From the NCBI GenBank assembly GCA_003208885.1, contig QCUP01000009.1, positions 1 to 32,492 on the forward strand: a DNA stretch of 32,492 nt, in the 5' to 3' direction. Below, in pieces: positions 7,074 to 25,139 of the stretch; position 1 is the stretch's first letter, and each line of letters starts with the position of its first letter. Made by a program: the position numbers and the translations under genes. Under the pieces are notes generated by a model that was not told the origin of the DNA, ran no database searches, and saw only the letters and a program-made list of their open reading frames with translations. This DNA comes from Prochlorococcus sp. AG-679-K21 (GTDB lineage Bacteria > Cyanobacteriota > Cyanobacteriia > PCC-6307 > Cyanobiaceae).

Positions 7074-7535
7074 TTATTTAATTTTCTCCAAGATCAATTT
7101 GGCGATCTCTTTTTTTATTGGAATTATAGATAGTCTATTACCTTTCTTAACTAATAACAGTTCTTGCTCATTAAATAAGATTTTTAGTTCAGTTAAACTT
7201 AAAAATTTATTTGCCTTAAATAGATATTTAACTTTCACACAATCCCATCTTGGTTCCTCTTGACTTGATTTAGGGTCATAATATTTTGATTCTTTTTGGA
7301 ATTGACTTGGGTCAACAATATTTAGATCGACAACCTCCATAAATCCAACGATGCCAGGAGGTTTACAATTTGAATGGTAGAAAAAAACTTTATCTCCAAG
7401 AGCCATTCTTCTCATGAAATTGCGCGCCTGATAATTTCGGATTCCATCCCATAAAGTAACCCCATCTTTTTTTAGGGTATCAATACTGTAAGCATCCGGT
7501 TCGCTTTTCATTAGCCAAAAATTTTCTTCAGTCAT
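7074..7535 (-). CDS. EVE-domain (PUA-like) protein
   Basis: 153 aa; FWLMKSEPDAYSIDTL, LWDGIRNYQARNFMRRMALGDKVFFYHSN, PGIVGFMEV motifs. Confidence 0.92.
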   Translation of the reverse strand: MTEENFWLMKSEPDAYSIDTLKKDGVTLWDGIRNYQARNFMRRMALGDKVFFYHSNCKPPGIVGFMEVVDLNIVDPSQFQKESKYYDPKSSQEEPRWDCVKVKYLFKANKFLSLTELKILFNEQELLLVKKGNRLSIIPIKKEIAKLILEKIK

Positions 7536-7579
7536 ATCAGGGGATTTGGAGGAAGTTGCAAATCGTGAACGAATCGTGA
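7504..7579. repeat. Composite repeat copy 1 (CATTAGCC segment overlapping the EVE start, plus 11-bp doublet)
   Basis: cttttcattagccaaaaattttcttcagtcatatca (7504-7539), followed by attgcaaa-like sequence and cgtgaacgaatcgtgaat (11-bp period). Confidence 0.8.
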
Positions 7580-7620
7580 ATGTAATATCATACTATTCGC
7601 TTTTATATATTCATTATCCT

Positions 7621-7660
7621 GCAAAGTTCCTATTTAGGAAAGTGATGGGTGGTACGGGGT
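7621..7660. repeat. Conserved 40-bp repeat B, copy 1
   Basis: gcaaagttcctatttaggaaagtgatgggtggtacggggt; near-identical at 17401, 20261, 21236 and 22588. Confidence 0.9.
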
Positions 7661-7812
7661 TAACTCCTTCGCCGTGCTTATCTGTAAACCCTGAGAGGAA
7701 TTTATAATATTTAGTTTGTATTTTTAATCACTTAAAACAGGATATCCTCTTAAATCACTAGTCATATTTTGAGAATCGTTGTAAATTATTTAAATTATTT
7801 TTAATCTTTTAA

Positions 7813-10800
7813 GTGAGTTCGGAATTAAAAGTTAAGGCTGAAAAATTAAGAGAAAGACTTCTTGACCTTTCGGGAAAAAATAGTTTTATAAGATATAACC
7901 ATACGACGGGAGGTAAAAATCCTAATAAACAAAAATATCTAAGAATCGTAAATGAAATACCAGAACTTTTAGTACAAAAATTAAGAAAAGGAACCAGATA
8001 TCAACTTCAATCGAAACCATCTGAAGCTAATTATGATTTTAACCTCCCTTTCATAACCCCTAAAACTGCAGCTCTATATAAAAAAAGTAGTAAATCAATA
8101 CAAGTATATGAGGGTGCAACTAAATTCGGATTATCATGCGCTGGTATTCGGCAAGACAGTAATAGTTATGAAAAAGATAAAGGAATAAACGTTTTATATG
8201 TCGCAATAGGTTTTCTTAAATATCCTCCCTTTAGAGGAGTAGTTCCGACATCAAAGCCAAAAGATCCAAATAAAAAACAAAAAAAAATTCCTACAGAATC
8301 ATTTGCACCTTTAATCCTCTATCCAGTTAAATTAACAAGAGAAAAAACCGCCTCAGGTTTTAATTATTTTTTAGAGACAAGTGAAGAAGAATTGATATTA
8401 AATAGGTCTTTAATTACAAAGCTGACTAAAGAAGAAGGCATTACATTACCTGAATTAAAATATGAAAAAGAAGATACTCCTCTTATTGAAAGATATTTTA
8501 AAGAAATAAATATTGCTCTTGCAGAAAAAAATGAAATTGAAGGATCTAATAAATGGGAATTAAAAAGATGGGCAACTCTGGGAATATTTAAATTTGGTAA
8601 ATTAGCAATTTTTGAAGACACTGATTTTTCTAAGTCTTGGTCAAAAAATCCATTACTAGATAAACAACTAGTTCAGGATTTTATTAATGGTGTTCCATCA
8701 AATTCAGTTGAAGATATTGGTGATATGGATATTTACCAAGATCAATTTGAAAATATTCAGATGCTTGGTCAAATACCTAAGTTAATTGCAGAAGCTGATA
8801 GTACTCAATATAAAGTAATCGTTAAAGCCCTTGAGGGCAAAAGCATGGCAATACAAGGTCCTCCAGGAACTGGAAAAAGCCAAACGATTACAAATATTAT
8901 TGGAGGGCTATTAGTAAGAAATAAAAAAGTTTTATTTGCAGCAGATAAATATACTGCTTTAGAAGTAGTTAAGCAAAGATTAACTCATAATAATTTGGGG
9001 CAATATATTCTTGAATTACACAATGCATCAAAGTCAAAGAAAGAGTTTCATGAAAATTTATCATCAAGATTAGCAAAGCCTAAAGTAAGATTTGTTAGTG
9101 ATTTTTACGAAGAAGACTTCCGTAAGTTAAAAAATCTTAGAAAAGAATTAAATGAACATGTTAATGCAATAAATCTAAAACTTAATTTGGATGGATCAAA
9201 TACGACTGTCTTTGATTTGATTTGGCGAGATGTCCTAAATAAAATTAATTTAGGAAAAAATAGTAGTTTTGATGTTATACAGGATTTTGAAGATAAGTTT
9301 TTAAATGATTTACTGAAAAATATCGAAAAAGAAAATATTTCAATCATTAAGTCTAATTTGGATATACTTTCAGAATTATCTGATTCAAGTAAGAATGATG
9401 AATTTTTAAAATTATCTCAATTAAAAGGGATACCAGAAACTGGGGATGATTTATCAAAATTAATAAGATTATCTAATAATCTTTTTTTAAGATTAGATGA
9501 TTTCAAAAAAAATATAAAAACAGAAAAGATAATATATTCTTCGTTATTAAATCTAAATAGAGAAAATTTAAAAAACGATATAGAAAGTTTTGAGGAACTT
9601 ATTTCTGAGAAATCAATTAATAAACAATTTACAATTAAAGAGGATATTAGTGAAAAGTTAGCCAATATATATAAACTAGTTGTAGAAAGAGAATCACAAG
9701 AAAACTACATTGAAAAATGGGCTAAACCTTTCTTAGAGAATGAAAATAAATTTGATCTCTTTGAGAATTGCCTAAAGGAAATTGAGAACATAGAGCCTAA
9801 AGATAAAAACTATAAGATTAAGGATCTACTAAATGATTTAACAGAACTTTATAAAACCATAAGAAGTTTTATTAGAGATATACCTATTGAAAAAAGAAGG
9901 TTAACTTCAAGATTAACTTTGAAAAATCTGATTGATGGAGTTGAATGTTTTAGAAAAATAAATCATGATTATTATGATTCATATGAAGATATTTTATTAC
10001 TTTTAAAAGGTACTAAAGATACTTCTAGCTTAGAAGACTTAATAAAAAAAATTAAGCAAATTCAAAAAAATAATAAAGATGGTGAAAAGATTCAAAAAGA
10101 TGGATTAGATCTAAATAAAATTAGAGACTTAGGTTCAGATAAGTTAAAAGATTTTTCTGAAGTAATTAGGAATTCTTCTTTCCTCGGGTGTTTGTTAGAT
10201 AAAGAAGTTAAATATGTTAAATCTTCTTGGAAAAAATATTCATTGCCTGGTTTTAAAAGACCTTCTTTAAAAGAAATGGCAAAAATATTTTTATTAGCAA
10301 GTAACTATTGTGAAAATATTGCTAATGAAGAACGATTTGGAGTGGATGGTTTTGATATTAATTACTTAAGGGAATTATCTTTAAAAATAAAATTTGATGG
10401 AAATTTAGAAAACATTTTATTCGATACAAAATCAAAGTTTTTAGAAATTGATTATTTTGAAGTGATCTATCAAGTTTTAAATCAAAATCAAAATTATAAT
10501 GATATCCAAATTCCTTACTTTGATAAATTATTAAATAAAAATATTCATGAAATACAGGAGCTTACAAATACTTATGCAACAAATATATTTAGTAAATTAA
10601 AATTATTAGGAGAAGATCCTAGTGCAAATATTTTAGATACAAGTTTTTCTACTATAAGTTTAATTTTAGATGATCTCAAATCATTAAAAAATATTATCAA
10701 AAATCTTGGCATAACAATTACTGAATCAGAAATATATTGTGAAAATAATCTAGAGTATTCAGTCTCTTCAAAAGATATAAATCGTCTTTTAGAGTTGTTT

Positions 10801-12828
10801 GGAAATATTGATATCTCTGAATATATAGAGGTTTCTTCTCAAAAAATAGAGGGTTTTTCTTTAATAAAATTACTTAATTTTCTGAAAATCCTAGATGATT
10901 TAACAAATGAACTATATGAGATATCTGCTAATTTTGAAGACGAAATTTTAAATTTTTATTTAGAAGAAAATTTTGAAGATGAAGACTATTTAAATGATTT
11001 AGAAAAATTAAGTCAAAGTTTAGATTATTTAATAAAGCTTGAAAGTAATTTAGAGGCTTTTATTGAATTTAATAGATTGAGAAAAAATATATCAAATCTT
11101 GGACTAAAAGGAGGTATTGACCAACTCCTCGATGTGGCTAATAAAACTAAAATTAAAGTATCTGATATCTTTGAATATCTTTATGTTAGAAATCAAATTA
11201 AGAGTATTAATCTAGATAAAAAACTTAATAAATTTTCTGGACAAGCCCTTATGGTTTGCAAAGACCAGTTTTGTGAATTGGATGTAAATTTTATAGAAAA
11301 TACCTCTAATTATGTTGATCAATATCTACATAAAAGCTCTTTAAAAAGAGAAGAACCTTTTGGTAATAGTAGAAGCCCAAAAAACTTAAGAGAGGGAGAT
11401 TTAATAGAACATGAAATTAATAAAAAAAGAAATCATCTTCCTTATCGAAAATTATTCGATCAGGCTCTTATTTCTCTTCAAAGAGTAAAGCCTTGTTTTA
11501 TGTTTTCACCTTCCTCAGCATCTCAATGTTTACCAAAGAAAATAGATATTTTTGATGTACTTATTATTGATGAAGCATCACAGATGAATCCTGAAGAAGC
11601 TATTGGTTTAATTGCAAGATGTAAACAAGTAATTATTGTTGGAGATGAAAAACAACTACCCCCAGATAATCGCTGGATGTCTAGAGATGATGATGATGAT
11701 GATGACGACTATGTTGAGACAGTTGAATTTGAAAGTAGCGAGTCAATTTTGGAGCTTGCAAATAAGGTATTAAGAAATAGTAGAGAATGTTCTCTGGGTT
11801 GGCATTACCGTTCTAGGCATCATTCTCTAATTAATTTCTCAAATAGATCATTTTATGACAATAGACTTACAGTTTTCCCTTCGAACAAAATAGGATCAGA
11901 AATTCATTTAGTTAAAGTAGAGGATCCTTATTACAACGAAAGTAAAAACTTACCAGAAGTTAAAACAGTTATGGAGACTTTAAAATCTCAAATTTTAGAT
12001 GATCCGACTAAAACTATATTGATAGCTTCTACTAATAGAGCTCAAGCAGGATTAATTCAGGATGAATTAGATCGTCTCAGAAATAAAGATAAAGTTATCA
12101 ATGATTATATAAGTTTGCATAAAGGAGAACTTGATAAATTGTTGGTTATGAATTTAGAAACTGTTCAAGGAGAGGAAAGAGATATAGTAATTATTTCAAC
12201 AGTATATGGACCTGATGCGAATGGAGTAGTCGCTAATAGATTCGGAGATTTAGTAAGGTCTGGAGGAGAAAGAAGATTAAATGTTCTACTAACTAGGGCT
12301 AAAGAAAAAGTCTATCTTGTGACTTCTTTAAATTCAGGAGATATTAGGGTTAGTCCTGGAGCAGTTAATGGAAAAAGATATCTTAAAGATTACTTATCTT
12401 TTGCTGAGACTGGAATAATTAGTGACACCTTAGTTAGGGAAAGTGGGGAGCCAGAGAATGATTTTGAAAGAGCTATTATGAATGCTATAAAACAAAGAGG
12501 TTATGAAGTTGATGCTCAAATTGGTTGCTTAAATTATCGGATTGATTTAGCGATAAAAGATCCAAGAGATACTTCGAGGTATCTATTAGCTGTTGAGTGT
12601 GATGGAGCTACATATCATTCTGGTTACTCAGCAAGAGTTCACGATAGATTAAGACAGCAAGTCTTGGAGGGATTAGGTTGGAATGTATTTCGTATCTGGT
12701 CTTCAGATTGGTGGAGAGCTCCTGAAGAAAAATTGGAATTATTAGATGAAACAATTCAAGGACTTCTTTCAAATACAGAAAAAGAAGAAAGTCTTGAAAT
12801 TAATCAAATTGATGATCTAGAAAATTGA
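7813..12828 (+). CDS. Large DUF4011-type SF1 (Upf1-like) helicase with C-terminal Vsr/DUF559-like nuclease domain; candidate defence protein
   Basis: GTG start; N-term KLRERLLDLSGKNSFIRYNHT; Walker A IQGPPGTGKSQT; Walker B FDVLIIDEASQM; GDEKQLPP; WHYRSRHHSLINFSN; TVQGEERDIVIIS; C-term RIDLAI...LLAVECDGATYHSGYSARVHDRLRQQVLEGLGWNVFRIWSSDWW. Confidence 0.9.
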   Translation: MSSELKVKAEKLRERLLDLSGKNSFIRYNHTTGGKNPNKQKYLRIVNEIPELLVQKLRKGTRYQLQSKPSEANYDFNLPFITPKTAALYKKSSKSIQVYEGATKFGLSCAGIRQDSNSYEKDKGINVLYVAIGFLKYPPFRGVVPTSKPKDPNKKQKKIPTESFAPLILYPVKLTREKTASGFNYFLETSEEELILNRSLITKLTKEEGITLPELKYEKEDTPLIERYFKEINIALAEKNEIEGSNKWELKRWATLGIFKFGKLAIFEDTDFSKSWSKNPLLDKQLVQDFINGVPSNSVEDIGDMDIYQDQFENIQMLGQIPKLIAEADSTQYKVIVKALEGKSMAIQGPPGTGKSQTITNIIGGLLVRNKKVLFAADKYTALEVVKQRLTHNNLGQYILELHNASKSKKEFHENLSSRLAKPKVRFVSDFYEEDFRKLKNLRKELNEHVNAINLKLNLDGSNTTVFDLIWRDVLNKINLGKNSSFDVIQDFEDKFLNDLLKNIEKENISIIKSNLDILSELSDSSKNDEFLKLSQLKGIPETGDDLSKLIRLSNNLFLRLDDFKKNIKTEKIIYSSLLNLNRENLKNDIESFEELISEKSINKQFTIKEDISEKLANIYKLVVERESQENYIEKWAKPFLENENKFDLFENCLKEIENIEPKDKNYKIKDLLNDLTELYKTIRSFIRDIPIEKRRLTSRLTLKNLIDGVECFRKINHDYYDSYEDILLLLKGTKDTSSLEDLIKKIKQIQKNNKDGEKIQKDGLDLNKIRDLGSDKLKDFSEVIRNSSFLGCLLDKEVKYVKSSWKKYSLPGFKRPSLKEMAKIFLLASNYCENIANEERFGVDGFDINYLRELSLKIKFDGNLENILFDTKSKFLEIDYFEVIYQVLNQNQNYNDIQIPYFDKLLNKNIHEIQELTNTYATNIFSKLKLLGEDPSANILDTSFSTISLILDDLKSLKNIIKNLGITITESEIYCENNLEYSVSSKDINRLLELFGNIDISEYIEVSSQKIEGFSLIKLLNFLKILDDLTNELYEISANFEDEILNFYLEENFEDEDYLNDLEKLSQSLDYLIKLESNLEAFIEFNRLRKNISNLGLKGGIDQLLDVANKTKIKVSDIFEYLYVRNQIKSINLDKKLNKFSGQALMVCKDQFCELDVNFIENTSNYVDQYLHKSSLKREEPFGNSRSPKNLREGDLIEHEINKKRNHLPYRKLFDQALISLQRVKPCFMFSPSSASQCLPKKIDIFDVLIIDEASQMNPEEAIGLIARCKQVIIVGDEKQLPPDNRWMSRDDDDDDDDYVETVEFESSESILELANKVLRNSRECSLGWHYRSRHHSLINFSNRSFYDNRLTVFPSNKIGSEIHLVKVEDPYYNESKNLPEVKTVMETLKSQILDDPTKTILIASTNRAQAGLIQDELDRLRNKDKVINDYISLHKGELDKLLVMNLETVQGEERDIVIISTVYGPDANGVVANRFGDLVRSGGERRLNVLLTRAKEKVYLVTSLNSGDIRVSPGAVNGKRYLKDYLSFAETGIISDTLVRESGEPENDFERAIMNAIKQRGYEVDAQIGCLNYRIDLAIKDPRDTSRYLLAVECDGATYHSGYSARVHDRLRQQVLEGLGWNVFRIWSSDWWRAPEEKLELLDETIQGLLSNTEKEESLEINQIDDLEN

Positions 12829-13918
12829 GCGCAAGATTTTCCGTCCCAAATACCTTTAAGGGGACAATAAATTTTGCTTTATCTTTCGCTTCAAAAATAC
12901 CAAAAATATAATATCGACCTAACCAACCTATTGACCCTCCGGAATGATATCCAATTCTAATTAAATAAGATTCTTGGCATCTTGATAATTGATTTGCTAT
13001 TTGATCACATTTGGATGAATCTACTTTTTTAAGTACTTCATAATGAGATTTATAGCGATCATGATTTTCTCTACCTTTTATATAACTTTTTTGATAGATA
13101 ATATTTTCTACTATAACTAGATCATTTTTTCTTTCTTTCTTTTTTGAAAAACCATTTTCTGAATTCCATTTAAAACATTCATCTAAATTAGTAGCAACAG
13201 AGTAAACATTATCTTTAGATATTTTTGACTTTATTTTATAACTCAATGGAATAGTTTTTCCGATATATTTTCCTGAACTATATTCAAATTCTCTTTTGTT
13301 TTTAATCCTAAATTCCTCTGTAAATAAATCTACTTTTGGTTTCTCAAAATATCCAAATGTAGGAAAACATGTTGGAGGGATAATTCCTTTATTTGTCTCC
13401 CAACCAATAACATTCTTATTATCGAATTTTTCTTGATTTACTCCGTTTATGGATTTAATAGTCCATTTACCATTTTCCATTCTGTCAAACCAGATTAGAC
13501 CCTGAGAAATCATGAATCCTCTCCATCCAATAGAATCACAATCTATTTCAGTATTTATAACTTTAGTAACCCATTCTTTAGGGAAGATTTGATCAAAACT
13601 TTTATTTTTGATGAATTCTCTTCTTGGACCATTTTGAAGTTCATCAATTAGAACATTTTTATAAATTCCTTGAATATCTTTTTTTGCTATGAGAGTTTGA
13701 ATCTTTCTCCCAAAATCATGAGCTTCCTGTCTGTCATAGTAATGATAATTCTTTTTCTTTTTTATTAATGAACAGTCTTTTCTCCCTGGTATTTGACTTT
13801 CAGAGTTTGCCGGAATCGGCACTGCGAAAACTATCAATAAAGCAAGTATTAAATTTTTTAAAGAGCTTTTAAAAATGATCTTATTTCTTACCTTTGCCAT
13901 ATCTCCAACCATTTCCAT
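12800..13918 (-). CDS. Hypothetical exported protein
   Basis: 372 aa with hydrophobic N-terminal segment NLILALLIVFAVPIPANSES; last gene of a 4-gene minus-strand operon. Confidence 0.8.
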   Translation of the reverse strand: MEMVGDMAKVRNKIIFKSSLKNLILALLIVFAVPIPANSESQIPGRKDCSLIKKKKNYHYYDRQEAHDFGRKIQTLIAKKDIQGIYKNVLIDELQNGPRREFIKNKSFDQIFPKEWVTKVINTEIDCDSIGWRGFMISQGLIWFDRMENGKWTIKSINGVNQEKFDNKNVIGWETNKGIIPPTCFPTFGYFEKPKVDLFTEEFRIKNKREFEYSSGKYIGKTIPLSYKIKSKISKDNVYSVATNLDECFKWNSENGFSKKKERKNDLVIVENIIYQKSYIKGRENHDRYKSHYEVLKKVDSSKCDQIANQLSRCQESYLIRIGYHSGGSIGWLGRYYIFGIFEAKDKAKFIVPLKVFGTENLALNFLDHQFD

Positions 13919-14381
13919 TTACCCAACCACCTGATCTACATTTCCCAGGACGCTTGAAATCATTACTATCACACCAAAATGTATCGCCTGCAAATATGAC
14001 TTTACTATTTATTCTTCTGGTACCACTATAAATAGGCATAAAATGAATACCTTTTTTTGAATTTAATTCTTCGGAACAAAAGAAATCAGGTCCGCACATT
14101 GCATAAGCAACATCTTTTTCATTTACATAAAGTATTGCTGCTGTTCCAGAATTTCTCCAATAAGGTATTCCTGGTAATCCAATCTCTTTTGCTTTTTGAT
14201 GGTGACGAGTAACTCTTGTTTTGTTTGATTCAAAAACATATTTCCACTCAACCTTTGGAAGATTTACTATGAGAATTCCAAAAATAATTGGTCCATATAA
14301 AGCTGCTACCCAAGCCCAAATTCCATATCTTTTATTTTTTTTATTTTCTTTTTTATTCGTTGAAGAATTAATCTTTATCAT
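13881..14381 (-). CDS. Hypothetical membrane-anchored protein
   Basis: 166 aa, single N-terminal TM (GIWAWVAALYGPIIFGILIV); overlaps the downstream ORF by 38 bp. Confidence 0.8.
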   Translation of the reverse strand: MIKINSSTNKKENKKNKRYGIWAWVAALYGPIIFGILIVNLPKVEWKYVFESNKTRVTRHHQKAKEIGLPGIPYWRNSGTAAILYVNEKDVAYAMCGPDFFCSEELNSKKGIHFMPIYSGTRRINSKVIFAGDTFWCDSNDFKRPGKCRSGGWVNGNGWRYGKGKK

Positions 14382-14384
14382 TTG

Positions 14385-14879
14385 TTATTTTTTACCCTTT
14401 TTATAAATAGTTTCTATTGTTGATATCCACCAATACCCAAAGCTATCAGTTAGTCTTTTTTGTATTTCTAGAGATGGCTCTTCCATACCTCGAGCCTTAA
14501 ATAGTTTAGGTACTGCTTTTTCCGTTGCTTCTTTGCAAAAAGCAGTTCTTTCTGCGACTTCATTTATAATAATTGGCTTTATGTTTTTTTCTTCAGTAAA
14601 CATAATTTTAGGTTGGATTTTATTACCTCTCATAATTCTTACAAATAATTCATCTGCAATACTCATAGCTTCATCAGGATGTTTGCCTTGATTAACAGCA
14701 AATACATAAGTGCAAGCAGCCATAGAAATAAATCTTGCGGCACAACTTTCTGCTCCATATTTCTGACACTCCAAACTAAATTCATTTTCTAATTTTTCAA
14801 ATTGCTCAGGTTTTGTTGGCACTGCAAATACTGATAAAGGGAATAACAGAAATAATGATGCTAGTAATAATTTATTCAT
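14385..14879 (-). CDS. Hypothetical exported protein
   Basis: 164 aa, signal peptide MNKLLLASLFLLFPLSVFAVP; ATGA overlap with upstream ORF. Confidence 0.8.
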   Translation of the reverse strand: MNKLLLASLFLLFPLSVFAVPTKPEQFEKLENEFSLECQKYGAESCAARFISMAACTYVFAVNQGKHPDEAMSIADELFVRIMRGNKIQPKIMFTEEKNIKPIIINEVAERTAFCKEATEKAVPKLFKARGMEEPSLEIQKRLTDSFGYWWISTIETIYKKGKK

Positions 14880-15232
14880 TTATCCTTTTTTACTTCAGGG
14901 AAACAATCTGGGAAGACATCTAGAACTTTTCCAATAGAATTCATCATATCTTCTTCTATTGTTTGTTTATTTCCATGAGCACGTTCATGGAGGTTTAGTG
15001 CAAATCCCAACATGTCTATTTTTTGTTTCATCGTAATGTGATTTCTATCTACTGCATAACAAACAGAAAGCATTTGACCAAGCAAGATTTTATTAGCTTC
15101 AATATCACTAATTTCAGAAGAGACTTTCTGATTGGAATTAACAGCAACAGGTAGAACGATAGCAGCTAATAAAGGTATTAGTAACTTACGCATAAATAGG
15201 GTATATCCTCCTAATTTTAAATCGACTGTCAA
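14876..15232 (-). CDS. Hypothetical exported protein
   Basis: 118 aa; signal-like MRKLLIPLLAAIVLPVAVNS (true start is probably this internal Met). Confidence 0.75.
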   Translation of the reverse strand: MTVDLKLGGYTLFMRKLLIPLLAAIVLPVAVNSNQKVSSEISDIEANKILLGQMLSVCYAVDRNHITMKQKIDMLGFALNLHERAHGNKQTIEEDMMNSIGKVLDVFPDCFPEVKKDK

Positions 15233-15430
15233 GAAGATATTTTTTTATTGCTGCTGGTGATTTTGTTCTGAATAAATATTTTTTTGATAGTGATTATAAA
15301 GATCAATTTCTTCTTTATCTTCACTAGCTAAACCAAGATTGAGTCTTGCTAATAGCATTATCCTTTGCTTTCTATAGTGTGAAATTGCCATTATTATCAA
15401 ATTTTTTCAATCGATTTTAGCTTAAAAAAT

Positions 15431-15574
15431 CGTGAACATATCGTGAACATTTTTTTAGGTGTTTTTGAAATCCATTGCTATGACTACTGGTACATGGTTC
15501 ATTAGCCAGTAGTTAATATCATTCATAGCAATCAGTTAGAAGATTATTATAAAGTGTGGACGGTGTGTGGACGG
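15431..15574. repeat. Composite repeat copy 2 (doublet - hairpin - doublet)
   Basis: cgtgaac at 15431/15442; TTGCTATGA/TCATAGCAA (15475-15483/15523-15531) and CTACTGG/CCAGTAG (15484-15490/15506-15512) stems; gtgtggacgg at 15554/15565. Confidence 0.9.
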
Positions 15575-17130: not shown

Positions 17131-17230
17131 ACTAAAAAAGAAACTAATTGCCCCTTAGTTTAGATCGACTGTCAATCACAAATTATCCTAAATCTTTACC
17201 TCAATAAATGTCTTTATATTTATTAGTTTT

Positions 17231-17377
17231 GCTAGAATTTTGCTAGAATAGAATTTAAGAAAATTTAAAAAACCTAGTCATATCAAGCTGGTACATGGTT
17301 CATTAGCCAGTAGCTAGGTTCCTGTTGTGGCATGGGATCTCGGCGTAATTATAGGGTTTGAATAAAGTGTGAATAAC
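17231..17377. repeat. Composite repeat copy 3 (doublet - hairpin - doublet)
   Basis: gctagaat at 17231/17242; AACCTAG/CTAGGTT (17271-17277/17314-17320) enclosing CTGG/CCAG; gtttgaataaa/gtgtgaataac at 17356/17367. Confidence 0.85.
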
Positions 17378-17400
17378 TGTTTAGATATGAATTTATTATC

Positions 17401-17442
17401 CATCAAAGTTCCTATTTAGGAAAGTGATGGGTGGTATGGGGT
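17401..17442. repeat. Conserved repeat B, copy 2
   Basis: catcaaagttcctatttaggaaagtgatgggtggtatggggt. Confidence 0.9.
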
Positions 17443-17529
17443 AAATAGTAATTAAGAATAAGTAATAAAGAAGCTTCAGAAACTAATGTCTAAATTTAAA
17501 TGATATCGCACTATATAAAATGCTAAAAA

Positions 17530-17613
17530 GTTTGAGTAAAGTTTGGGTAAAAAATTACGGTTCCTTGAGATCCAAGTAATTGCTTGTCGCGCTCACTTTT
17601 CATTAGCCAGTAG
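17530..17613. repeat. Composite repeat copy 4
   Basis: gtttgagtaaa/gtttgggtaaa at 17530/17541, ttccttgagatcca, then ctcacttttcattagccagtag; closely matches copy 8. Confidence 0.85.
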
Positions 17614-18246: not shown

Positions 18247-18329
18247 GGAATAATCTTTTTTTTAGCTTAATGAGAGCTCTTGCTCATAATTTTATGGCGA
18301 CTGTCAATCTATAAAATTTAAGAAATAAA

Positions 18330-18699: not shown

Positions 18700-18794
18700 T
18701 CCTTGTTCAAGTAGAATAGGTCAATCAGAAACTCCTCACACACTAATTTCTGATAATTAAACGCCCTGATTCGTAAGAATAAGGGTGTTTTTTT
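18700..18794 (+). ncRNA. Candidate Yfr1-motif RNA
   Basis: ACTCCTCACAC at 18731-18741 inside a perfect ATCAGAA/TTCTGAT stem, followed by CCTGATTC-GTAA-GAATAAGG hairpin and T8. Confidence 0.5.
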
Positions 18795-18894
18795 AATGAA
18801 ACTAAGTCCTAAAAGAGTTAATTGGTATATGTGTCGAATAAGTAACATTACTTATCCCCTTCCACCAAAAAAAATAATATGTAATAGATTTAAT

Positions 18895-18992
18895 TTGTGT
18901 GTAGGAGAGGTTTTACTAAAACCGTGGAAACAAGGAAACACTTCATTTAGTAAAACCAGAAAAAGACCCCTAGTTATAGGGGCCTTTTTTTT
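18895..18992 (+). ncRNA. Yfr2-family small RNA
   Basis: GGTTTTACTAAA/TTTAGTAAAACC 12-bp stem (18909-18920/18946-18957) with loop containing tandem GGAAACA-AGGAAACA, then CCCCTA-gtta-TAGGGG terminator and T8. Confidence 0.85.
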
Positions 18993-20069: not shown

Positions 20070-20225
20070 GTTCGAATGAGGTTCGAATGGAATTTTTTGT
20101 AAAAAATAAAAAACTTGCTATGACTAGCAAAATGAATCTCGCGCACTTTTCATTAGCCAAAAATTTTCTTCAGTCATATCAAGGTATTAGAAGAATATTG
20201 CAAAGTGTGGATAGGGTGTGGACGG
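20070..20225. repeat. Composite repeat copy 5, carrying a 36-bp copy of the EVE gene 5' end
   Basis: gttcgaatgag/gttcgaatgg at 20070/20081; TTGCTA-TGAC-TAGCAA hairpin; 20146-20181 identical to 7504-7539; gtgtggatagg/gtgtggacgg at 20205/20216. Confidence 0.9.
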
Positions 20226-20451: not shown

Positions 20452-21210
20452 ATGAAAAAAAAATCGCGAGATTATTATCTAGAAATTTTAAATTTATCAG
20501 AAGATTTTAATATCTATGCGCTTAAGAAGGCGTATAGAAGAGAAGCTAAAAAGTGGCATCCTGATCTGAACAAAGAAATAATCCTTACTGAAGAGAGGAT
20601 TAAGTTAATAAATGAAGCATATGAATTTTTAAAAACTTCCAAAAGAAGAATAGCAACCAAGGGGAAGGAATCTACTTCAAATGCATATCAGAAGGAATCT
20701 ACTTCAAATGCATATCAGAAAGAATCAACGAAGAGGAAGGAATCTACTTCAAATGCATATCAGAAAAACGCGATCAGAGAAAAGAAATCAAGATTTTTCT
20801 CGCTAAAAGTTACCCCCTTAATAATGGGCGTTATCTTAATAACATTAATTCAAATTTTTCCCCGTATACTTTGGAAAGTCTATTCACCGCCGAAATATTA
20901 TACAGATTCAATAAAAGCTTCATTAGTGAATGGTATTAAAGAATGCTTTAACCGTTATTTAGAAAAAAAATCTACAAAATTCTCTGATTCACAATTTTTT
21001 TCATCAAACAATTACGAAGGTTACTACATGAGTACATTAGTATCGATCAATAATAGTAATACTTGTTTTCAGGCACAAGCATTCCCTGAATTAAGATTTA
21101 AAGACAAACTCACAAGGTTCGATATCGAGCTGAATCTTAGAACAGGAATAATATCTAAAACTTGTGATGACCCATCAAAATATGGATGCAATGAAGGAAA
21201 TACTTGGTAG
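20452..21210 (+). CDS. J-domain (DnaJ-like) protein with internal peptide repeats and TM segment
   Basis: 252 aa; N-terminal J domain (DYYLEILNLSEDFNIYALKKAYRREAKKWHPDLNKE), three KESTSNAYQ repeats, TM, then exported C-terminal domain. Confidence 0.85.
   Translation: MKKKSRDYYLEILNLSEDFNIYALKKAYRREAKKWHPDLNKEIILTEERIKLINEAYEFLKTSKRRIATKGKESTSNAYQKESTSNAYQKESTKRKESTSNAYQKNAIREKKSRFFSLKVTPLIMGVILITLIQIFPRILWKVYSPPKYYTDSIKASLVNGIKECFNRYLEKKSTKFSDSQFFSSNNYEGYYMSTLVSINNSNTCFQAQAFPELRFKDKLTRFDIELNLRTGIISKTCDDPSKYGCNEGNTW
20665..20763. repeat. Three 27-bp perfect repeats inside the J-domain gene
   Basis: aaggaatctacttcaaatgcatatcag at 20665, 20692 and 20737. Confidence 0.95.
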
Positions 21211-21311: not shown

Positions 21312-21450
21312 TTGCAAATCGTGAACATTTTTTTATAGGTTTTTGAAATCCATTGCTATGACTGCTGGCAAATGGTTCATTAACCAGTAGTTAGGTTCAG
21401 TCATATTAGTTATTTAGAAGAAAGTTACGATGTGGAACGGTGTGTGAATA
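21312..21450. repeat. Composite repeat copy 6
   Basis: attgcaaatcgtgaac, ATGACTG/CAGTCAT (21358-21364/21398-21404) enclosing CTGG/CCAG, then gtggaacggtgtgtgaat. Confidence 0.85.
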
Positions 21451-22440: not shown

Positions 22441-22513
22441 GTAGCCAGTAGTTAGGTTCATTCATAGTCTATAATTTGCGAGAAATAGTACTGCTGGTAT
22501 TGTGCTGGTATGG
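22441..22513. repeat. Composite repeat copy 7 (partial)
   Basis: gtagccagtagttaggttcattcatagtc, then tgctggtattg/tgctggtatgg at 22492/22503. Confidence 0.75.
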
Positions 22514-24417: not shown

Positions 24418-24633
24418 ATGGTAGGAGTAACTAAAGATCCGACATTATTTTTACTTTTAGGGACTATTGGGCTTCTATTTTTTGGTTCAATAGGATATGG
24501 AATATATACAACAGTTGGACCATCATCATATAAATTAAGAGATACAATTAAAGAGCATGCAAGGTTACATGAATTAGGTATCGCACATGGACATAATAGT
24601 CAAAACCATAATGAAGCTGACCATATACATTAA
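24418..24633 (+). CDS. PsbN-like membrane protein with His-rich tail
   Basis: 71 aa; single TM then GYGIYTTVGPSSYKLRDTIKEH (PsbN-like FGPPS.LRDPFEEH) and tail HGHNSQNHNEADHIH. Confidence 0.55.
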   Translation: MVGVTKDPTLFLLLGTIGLLFFGSIGYGIYTTVGPSSYKLRDTIKEHARLHELGIAHGHNSQNHNEADHIH

Positions 24634-24645
24634 AAAGATATTTTA

Positions 24646-24783
24646 ATGAATTTATTTTTTGTTGACTCTGATTTAACGACAGGATTTTTCTTTATTTCAA
24701 TTTTTTCTGGAGCGTTGTTATCGTTTTTTATTTTCCTTCTTTTTTGGTTAACTAATCAAAATGCAATGTTTAAAAAACAATAG
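24646..24783 (+). CDS. Small membrane protein
   Basis: 45 aa MNLFFVDSDLTTGFFFISIFSGALLSFFIFLLFWLTNQNAMFKKQ. Confidence 0.5.
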   Translation: MNLFFVDSDLTTGFFFISIFSGALLSFFIFLLFWLTNQNAMFKKQ

Positions 24784-24797
24784 TTTGCTTATAAAAA

Positions 24798-24880
24798 GTT
24801 TGGGTAAATTTTGAGTAAAAATCACAAATCCTTGAGATCCATTCTGAAATCAGACTGACTCACTTTTCATTAGCCAGTAG
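24798..24880. repeat. Composite repeat copy 8
   Basis: gtttgggtaaa/ttttgagtaaa at 24798/24809, ccttgagatcca, ctcacttttcattagccagtag ending at 24880. Confidence 0.85.
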
Positions 24881-24996
24881 GACCATCATCTTATAAGTTA
24901 AGAGATACAATTAAAGAGCAGGCAAGATTACATGAGCTAGGTATAGCTCATGGACACAATAGTCACAATCATAATGAATCAGATCATCTTCATTAA
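24877..24996 (+). pseudogene. 5'-truncated duplicate of the PsbN-like gene at 24418
   Basis: VGPSSYKLRDTIKEQARLHELGIAHGHNSHNHNESDHLH*; in-frame TAG at 24871 inside the repeat, so no start. Confidence 0.85.
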
Positions 24997-25139
24997 AAAA
25001 TAATTTAAAAAAGTTTATTGCACTTATTACTTTTAAAACAACTCAAAAACAAGGAGAAGCCAATATCAAAAGTATTTTTAGTCTTGCTTTAGTGATGACC
25101 TCATTGGTAGTTTGGATATGCGTATTTAAATAAAAAATT

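Follow-up and report, generated by a model that had tools for sequence, protein, structure and literature searches.

How did a short core sequence come to be repeated, always in the same orientation, across one contig of Prochlorococcus sp. AG-679-K21? The DNA analysed here (the window, 32,492 nucleotides) contains several copies of such a core, which the first-pass annotation read as a conserved asymmetric hairpin. Judging from the arrangement of target, core and element ends, we conclude that the cores are very probably attachment junctions, left by a family of tyrosine-integrase elements for which the 5' end of an EVE-domain gene of Prochlorococcus is the specific insertion site.

The repeated core derives from the start of the EVE gene

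All sites have in common TTCATTAGCCA or a one-base variant of it, which is the reverse complement of EVE codons 7-10 (WLMK). Intact cores start at positions 7507, 15498, 17299, 17599, 20149, 21376 and 24866, all in identical orientation, and a truncated half is found at 22445 (Table 1). By searching the genomes of the genus, we found the EVE gene in 221 out of 266. In relatives of the window genome, the gene retains TGGCTAATGAA, a limited number of versions exist of its first codons and upstream region, and the 20 kb upstream of it contain as many as nine additional junctions, likewise all in one orientation. Across the genus, exact copies of the core exceed the number of EVE genes, and the reversed pattern, used as a control, hardly occurs. 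In other genera of the family with small genomes, 6-10 core matches were obtained (G266, G271, G286, G303, G324), and most genomes of at least 2 Mb gave one or two. As a separate observation, most genomes of the genus have TTTTGGCTAATGAA at a second place too (L120, G043:C1:873500-876000 and equivalents), and in several of them it occurs there twice, exactly 1184 bp apart.

Table 1. Features of the EVE locus and its array in the window (., strand not applicable).
Feature	Position	Strand	Remarks
EVE-domain gene, target	7074..7535	-	5' end contains core 7507-7517; Pfam EVE E=7e-53
Crossover core TGGCTAATGAA within EVE	7507..7517	-	newest junction
First element, 7991 bp	7507..15508	.	TTCACGA arms at both ends
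Arm pair TTCACGATTCGTTCACGA	7563..7580	-	EVE-side end of first element
Conserved block upstream of EVE	7610..7644	-	carried by elements; candidate promoter
Cargo: 1671-aa DUF4011-helicase-MTES_1575 nuclease defence protein (PDC-S37 / Hhe)	7813..12828	+	
Arm pair TTCACGATATGTTCACGA	15433..15450	-	far end of first element
Junction (first-pass copy 2)	15475..15531	.	two half-sites from different elements; core 15498-15508
Arm pair TCCACACACCGTCCACAC	15557..15574	-	EVE-side end of next element
Arm pair TTCTAGCAAAATTCTAGC	17232..17249	-	
Junction (first-pass copy 3)	17271..17320	.	core 17299-17309
Conserved upstream block, second copy	17392..17426	-	
CAAAC-type arm pair (CCCAAACTTTACTCAAAC)	17528..17545	-	
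Junction core	17599..17609	-	
Arm pair TTCGAACCTCATTCGAAC	20072..20089	-	
Junction core, then copy of EVE 5' end	20149..20159	-	
Arm pair TCCACACCCTATCCACAC	20205..20222	-	
Junction (first-pass copy 6)	21358..21404	.	core variant TGGTTAATGAA at 21376-21386
Truncated EVE-side half	22445..22511	-	TACCAGC arms 22494-22511
CAAAC-type far half and core	24794..24876	-	core 24866-24876; joined to psbN-like gene

Four further features of the array were recorded. First, the psbN-like gene is present in two copies (24512-24656 and 24875-25019), and an element half-site replaces the 5' part of the second, so that this gene is likely a secondary insertion target. Second, the Rfam small RNAs Yfr10 and Cyano-1 lie at 18724-18804 and 18895-18962, between the junctions at 17599 and 20149. 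Third, a motif ATCGACTGTCAA (reverse TTGACAGTCGATCTAAA) is repeated near the starts of cassette genes, at 15205-15234, 17148-17177 and 18280-18309, and is also found in the phage contig L093 and in elements of relatives; it is possibly a common promoter or leader. Fourth, a DnaJ-domain gene (20452-21210) contains a short peptide-coding repeat (GGAATCTACTTCAAATGCATATCAGAA) in three near-identical copies at 20654-20765.

Elements carry pairs of arm repeats at their ends

Read in the direction of EVE, an element consists of the core, a far half, an arm pair, the integrase gene (in intact elements), cargo, a conserved block (in many elements, CACTTTCCTAAATAGGAACTTTGATGGATAATAA), a second arm pair, a new EVE start (e.g. 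ATGACTGAA...) and again the core, with a median unit length of ~3 kb. There are few types of far half (e.g. CCATGTACCAG... or AAGTGAGCGCGACTAG...), and the arm pair that comes after them is 47-60 bp further on; overall, arms lie 45-65 bp from the core. A scan of the conserved upstream block for sigma-70 promoters gave no consensus match. The arm repeats are spaced by 11 bp in 146 of 150 halves, and their types include TTCACGA, TACCAGC, TTCTAGC, CCACAC/TTCACAC, CAAAC, TTCGAAC and CTAGCA.

We then compared the arms of the two ends of each element. The same type was found at both ends in 21 elements out of 43, against 8.5 by permutation. A type-free test gave 33 matches in 86 (14.4+-3.2 expected), a value never reached in 10,000 permutations, and in most CAAAC cases the sub-variants ATTCAAAC, ATCCAAAC and ACTCAAAC match at both ends too. 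In contrast, the two halves that meet at a junction showed no excess of matches, with either the typed (7/40 vs 8.7) or the type-free comparison (15/118 vs 15.6). Since ends match per element and not across the junction, a junction is made of the old EVE-side half and the far half of the newcomer. About half of the elements have ends that do not match, which indicates that the arrays are mosaics.

Similar repeats were observed elsewhere. On a GC-rich prophage contig encoding an Arm-DNA-bind_3 integrase, CATACCAGCAGCATACCAGCAGC lies ~50 bp past a tRNA and is the same repeat as in the TACCAGC type of EVE elements. At other integrase loci of the genus, pairs of direct repeats spaced by 10-12 bp lie near the gene, and at the loci L075 and L086 direct-repeat pairs occur at two places 8-9 kb apart, as expected of element ends. 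A match on viral contigs with TCCACAC repeats (L095/L096) was discarded, being a longer tandem repeat on an unrelated contig.

Intact elements encode a divergent tyrosine integrase next to the arms

We found no tyrosine integrase in the window, its first element (7507..15508) included, and the integrase matches of the same genome, which is 66% complete, sit on other contigs. A PF00589 search, in which the listed positions of integrases and EVE genes were compared, also placed none near EVE or in the arrays, because the EVE integrase scores under the reporting limit. It was detected by phmmer, using integrases of tycheposon-like loci as queries and the open reading frames of the arrays as targets, as genes of 529-539 aa in the arrays of three genomes, plus fragments. 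Genus-wide, six genomes (G142, G091, G044, G215, G052, G119) were found to have a full-length gene and G123 to have a broken copy; many others have shorter remnants. On contigs that contain both genes, the full-length integrase gene is 4-11 kb upstream of EVE. In the eight integrase-bearing elements that we examined (G142, G091, G044, G215, G052, G119, G123 and G303), the integrase gene starts 0-60 bp past the arm pair and the arm type is equal at both ends (for G052, across two contigs); six of the eight adjoin EVE. An integrase located 44 kb from EVE in G141 adjoins tRNA-Thr/Tyr and was set aside as unrelated.

The G303 integrase matches PF00589 with E=7e-5 and two other copies do so with 0.002-0.005. 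The catalytic Lys, Arg-II and Tyr are present in the EVE integrases. At the Arg-I position, all seven aligned EVE integrases have a Ser (SGMSPEEI; residue 300 of L144:1501-3084:-), in frames that are intact and conserved, and the relatives L076 and L082 have an Arg. Aligned to the first of them, the seven share 61-88% identity. The EVE integrases are a distinct and divergent family of tyrosine integrases. Over the N-terminal 100 residues, integrases of different arm types share 38-48% identity and those of one type 67-100%, whereas in the catalytic part the TACCAGC and CAAAC types share 80-87%. Thus, among the seven full-length integrases, few cases as they are, the sequence of the N-terminal region follows the arm type. 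No integrase of the TTCACGA, TTCTAGC, TTCGAAC or CTAGCA types was found, no arm domain of Pfam was recognised in the EVE integrases, and a PDB sequence search with the integrase found nothing. An AlphaFold model of the integrase was of low confidence, only the N-terminal and core-binding parts being moderately modelled. In this poor model the N-terminus would be a beta-sheet plus helix, and the best PDB matches include Cre, the integrase N-terminal domain 3nrw and the HPI / P4-like arm-binding domains 3jtz and 3rmp. These weak matches (E ~0.1-0.4) suggest an N-terminal arm-binding fold.

Most copies of the elements have no integrase and carry cargo such as defence genes. In ~25 genomes, just the last 23-25 codons of the integrase gene are left, directly after the arms. 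Such integrase-less elements therefore look like deletion derivatives.

Could these integrases be passengers, in arrays whose movement or reshuffling is due to the universal 389-390 aa chromosomal recombinase, or else to homologous recombination between the repeats? We consider this improbable as an account of the arrays, even though the recombinase is the sole PF00589 match in several genomes with dense arrays, since it is equally present where there are no arrays (120 of 121 genomes of the family have it) and thus does not discriminate as an agent. Homologous recombination may explain the mosaics, mismatched ends in half of the elements being what recombination between repeats would give, but the arm types match per element and track the N-terminal region of the integrases that the elements carry. 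In the genome of the window, the 389-aa phage-type recombinase (L052:1426-2595) is on contig C27, near pyrH and cobO-like genes.

The apparent hairpin is made of half-sites of different elements

The pairings claimed by the first-pass annotation for its copies 2, 3 and 6 are literally present. In copy 2, TTGCTATGA (15475-15483) pairs with TCATAGCAA (15523-15531) and CTACTGG (15484-15490) with CCAGTAG (15506-15512), and the 3' side has 10 extra nt. When the sites were folded as single-stranded DNA, copy 2 was strongly structured (z=-5.7, with 0/200 shuffles equally good) and copy 6 moderately so (z=-2.6, 2/200), and copy 3 was not significant (z=-1.3, 21/200). The sister sites at 7507, 17599, 20149 and 24866 of the same array showed no fold (z from -0.2 to +0.6); the first of these is the site inside EVE itself (7490-7550, z=0.6).

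Covariation was measured, with re-dealt halves as the null, over a set of 93 distinct internal junctions taken from the window and its relatives. Canonical pairs occupied 39.2% of the cells in the outer stem (40.5% with re-dealt halves, P=0.80) and 58.2% in the inner stem (58.3%, P=0.58), and two-sided stem changes were not in excess over re-dealt halves. Hence, the compensatory changes that had been claimed were not borne out. The claim that the fold is selected also finds no support, since covariation is lacking, the stem arms derive from different elements and the hairpin cannot form at most sites of the array. A weak residual, which we leave unexplained, was seen in the fold energy of 50 junctions (mean -13.7 vs -12.8 kcal/mol when permuted, P=0.007). 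Pairs across the two halves of these 50 junctions were not in excess (P=0.39), and reconstructed pairs of halves of the same element had a fold energy no better than random (P=0.36). Given that matches between the arm repeats of halves meeting at a junction are not in excess, each arm of the stem belongs to a different element: the hairpin is two half-sites that are partly complementary by chance.

These data bear on two further explanations. The first-pass annotation had also considered a structured RNA possible. Such an RNA, or a regulatory hairpin, where the EVE transcript begins is very unlikely: the EVE-side half is the start of EVE, so it is probably transcribed there, and the residual in energy fits a fold, but the conserved part is the coding start of EVE, the 93 junctions do not covary, the site within EVE is unfolded and an Rfam search gave no match at the junction sites. 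Equally hard to sustain is an integron-like array, in which gene cassettes would be separated by attC sites, folded as single strands and recognised by an integron integrase. Although the array is made of small oriented units and copy 2 folds strongly, the unfolded sister sites already contradict this reading, the window shows no enrichment of the GTTRRRY motif, which copies 2 and 3 lack, there are no attC boxes, the contig carries no integrase and no intI lies beside the array (in a genome 66% complete), the stems do not covary, and double-stranded arm repeats account for the element ends. Of the earlier suggestion of folded single-stranded recombination sites, the recombination part is right and the folded single-stranded part is unsupported. 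The sites are, as far as sequence can tell, double-stranded junctions of tyrosine-integrase elements in a protein gene.

Cargo, transfer and proposed mechanism

In relatives, an integrase-bearing element carries a complete type I restriction-modification system; their cargo also comprises the phosphatase PhoX and a unit of three genes (CobW_C, metallophosphoesterase, unknown) which is present in several strains at differing positions of the array. A complete EVE-array junction with TCCACAC arms was also found in a T4-like cyanophage contig (IMGVR_UViG_3300006334_000917; L093:371-480), between a small gene and a cupin gene and beside uvsX, the product of which is 89% identical to the UvsX of P-SSM2. 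This junction suggests one route of transfer.

We propose that an incoming circle recombines within TGGCTAATGAA, which would cut EVE off from its old promoter and first codons. The newcomer would supply the replacement, namely the upstream block, the 11-bp-spaced arm repeats and new start codons, and successive insertions would build up a tandem array whose junctions all point the same way and in which the newest element adjoins EVE. The integrase would bind both arms and core, elements without an integrase would move in trans, and the upstream block would drive EVE. More tentatively, the EVE locus could be a functional counterpart of the integron, a dedicated dock for small integrase-less cassettes (defence, phosphate, other). 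A few EVE-specific integrases, whose arm-binding domains would be interchangeable, could capture and exchange these cassettes in trans, and cyanophages could carry them from cell to cell.

To our knowledge, the island genes of Prochlorococcus are exchanged without known conjugation and with few prophages. The EVE locus is a single site that most genomes of the genus possess and that also exists in several sister genera, and its readable junctions give the order of arrival. They allow insertions to be counted, integrases to be typed and cargo (type I restriction system, helicase-nuclease defence gene) to be tracked between strains. Also, the link between arm type and N-terminal region offers a natural experiment in integrase specificity. 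The site would be a gene-collecting dock and not a folded RNA, with mobile elements inserted one after another in the front end of one gene.

Comparison with known systems

The tycheposons of Prochlorococcus are cargo-carrying elements of 4-200 kb, found at seven tRNA genes and equipped with a tyrosine recombinase (PMC10872708). EVE elements resemble them in genus, tyrosine recombinase and cargo, and integrase loci of the genus likewise show repeat pairs 10-12 bp apart. However, EVE elements target a protein-coding gene, and there is no tRNA in the window; their median unit is only ~3 kb, most units have no integrase, and the integrases that exist belong to the distinct family described above. 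We found no prior mention of the EVE locus in the open literature searched; the main tycheposon paper lay outside that search, so an earlier mention is possible.

In additive flexible genomic islands of Methylophilaceae, cassettes are separated by repeats that correspond to the last 20 bp of tRNA-Lys (PMC10872708). Insertion in succession at one site and target repeats between cassettes are common to both systems, whereas the target is a tRNA 3' end in the islands and the EVE 5' end here, and the EVE arrays show arm repeats and replacement of the gene start. Another comparable element is the one reported in PMC4489591, which shares with EVE elements a tyrosine integrase, the 5' end of a protein gene as target and a new gene start brought by the element. 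In comparison, EVE elements have no identified conjugation genes, are much smaller and form long arrays of non-autonomous units. P4-like and HPI integrases are linked to the EVE family by the identical TACCAGC arms beside an Arm-DNA-bind_3 integrase and by the weak structure matches to 3jtz and 3rmp, but differ in that EVE integrases have no recognised Pfam arm domain. Finally, integrons share with the EVE array small units in one orientation; the EVE array has neither attC boxes nor an integron integrase, and each of its units instead carries a copy of the start of the target gene.
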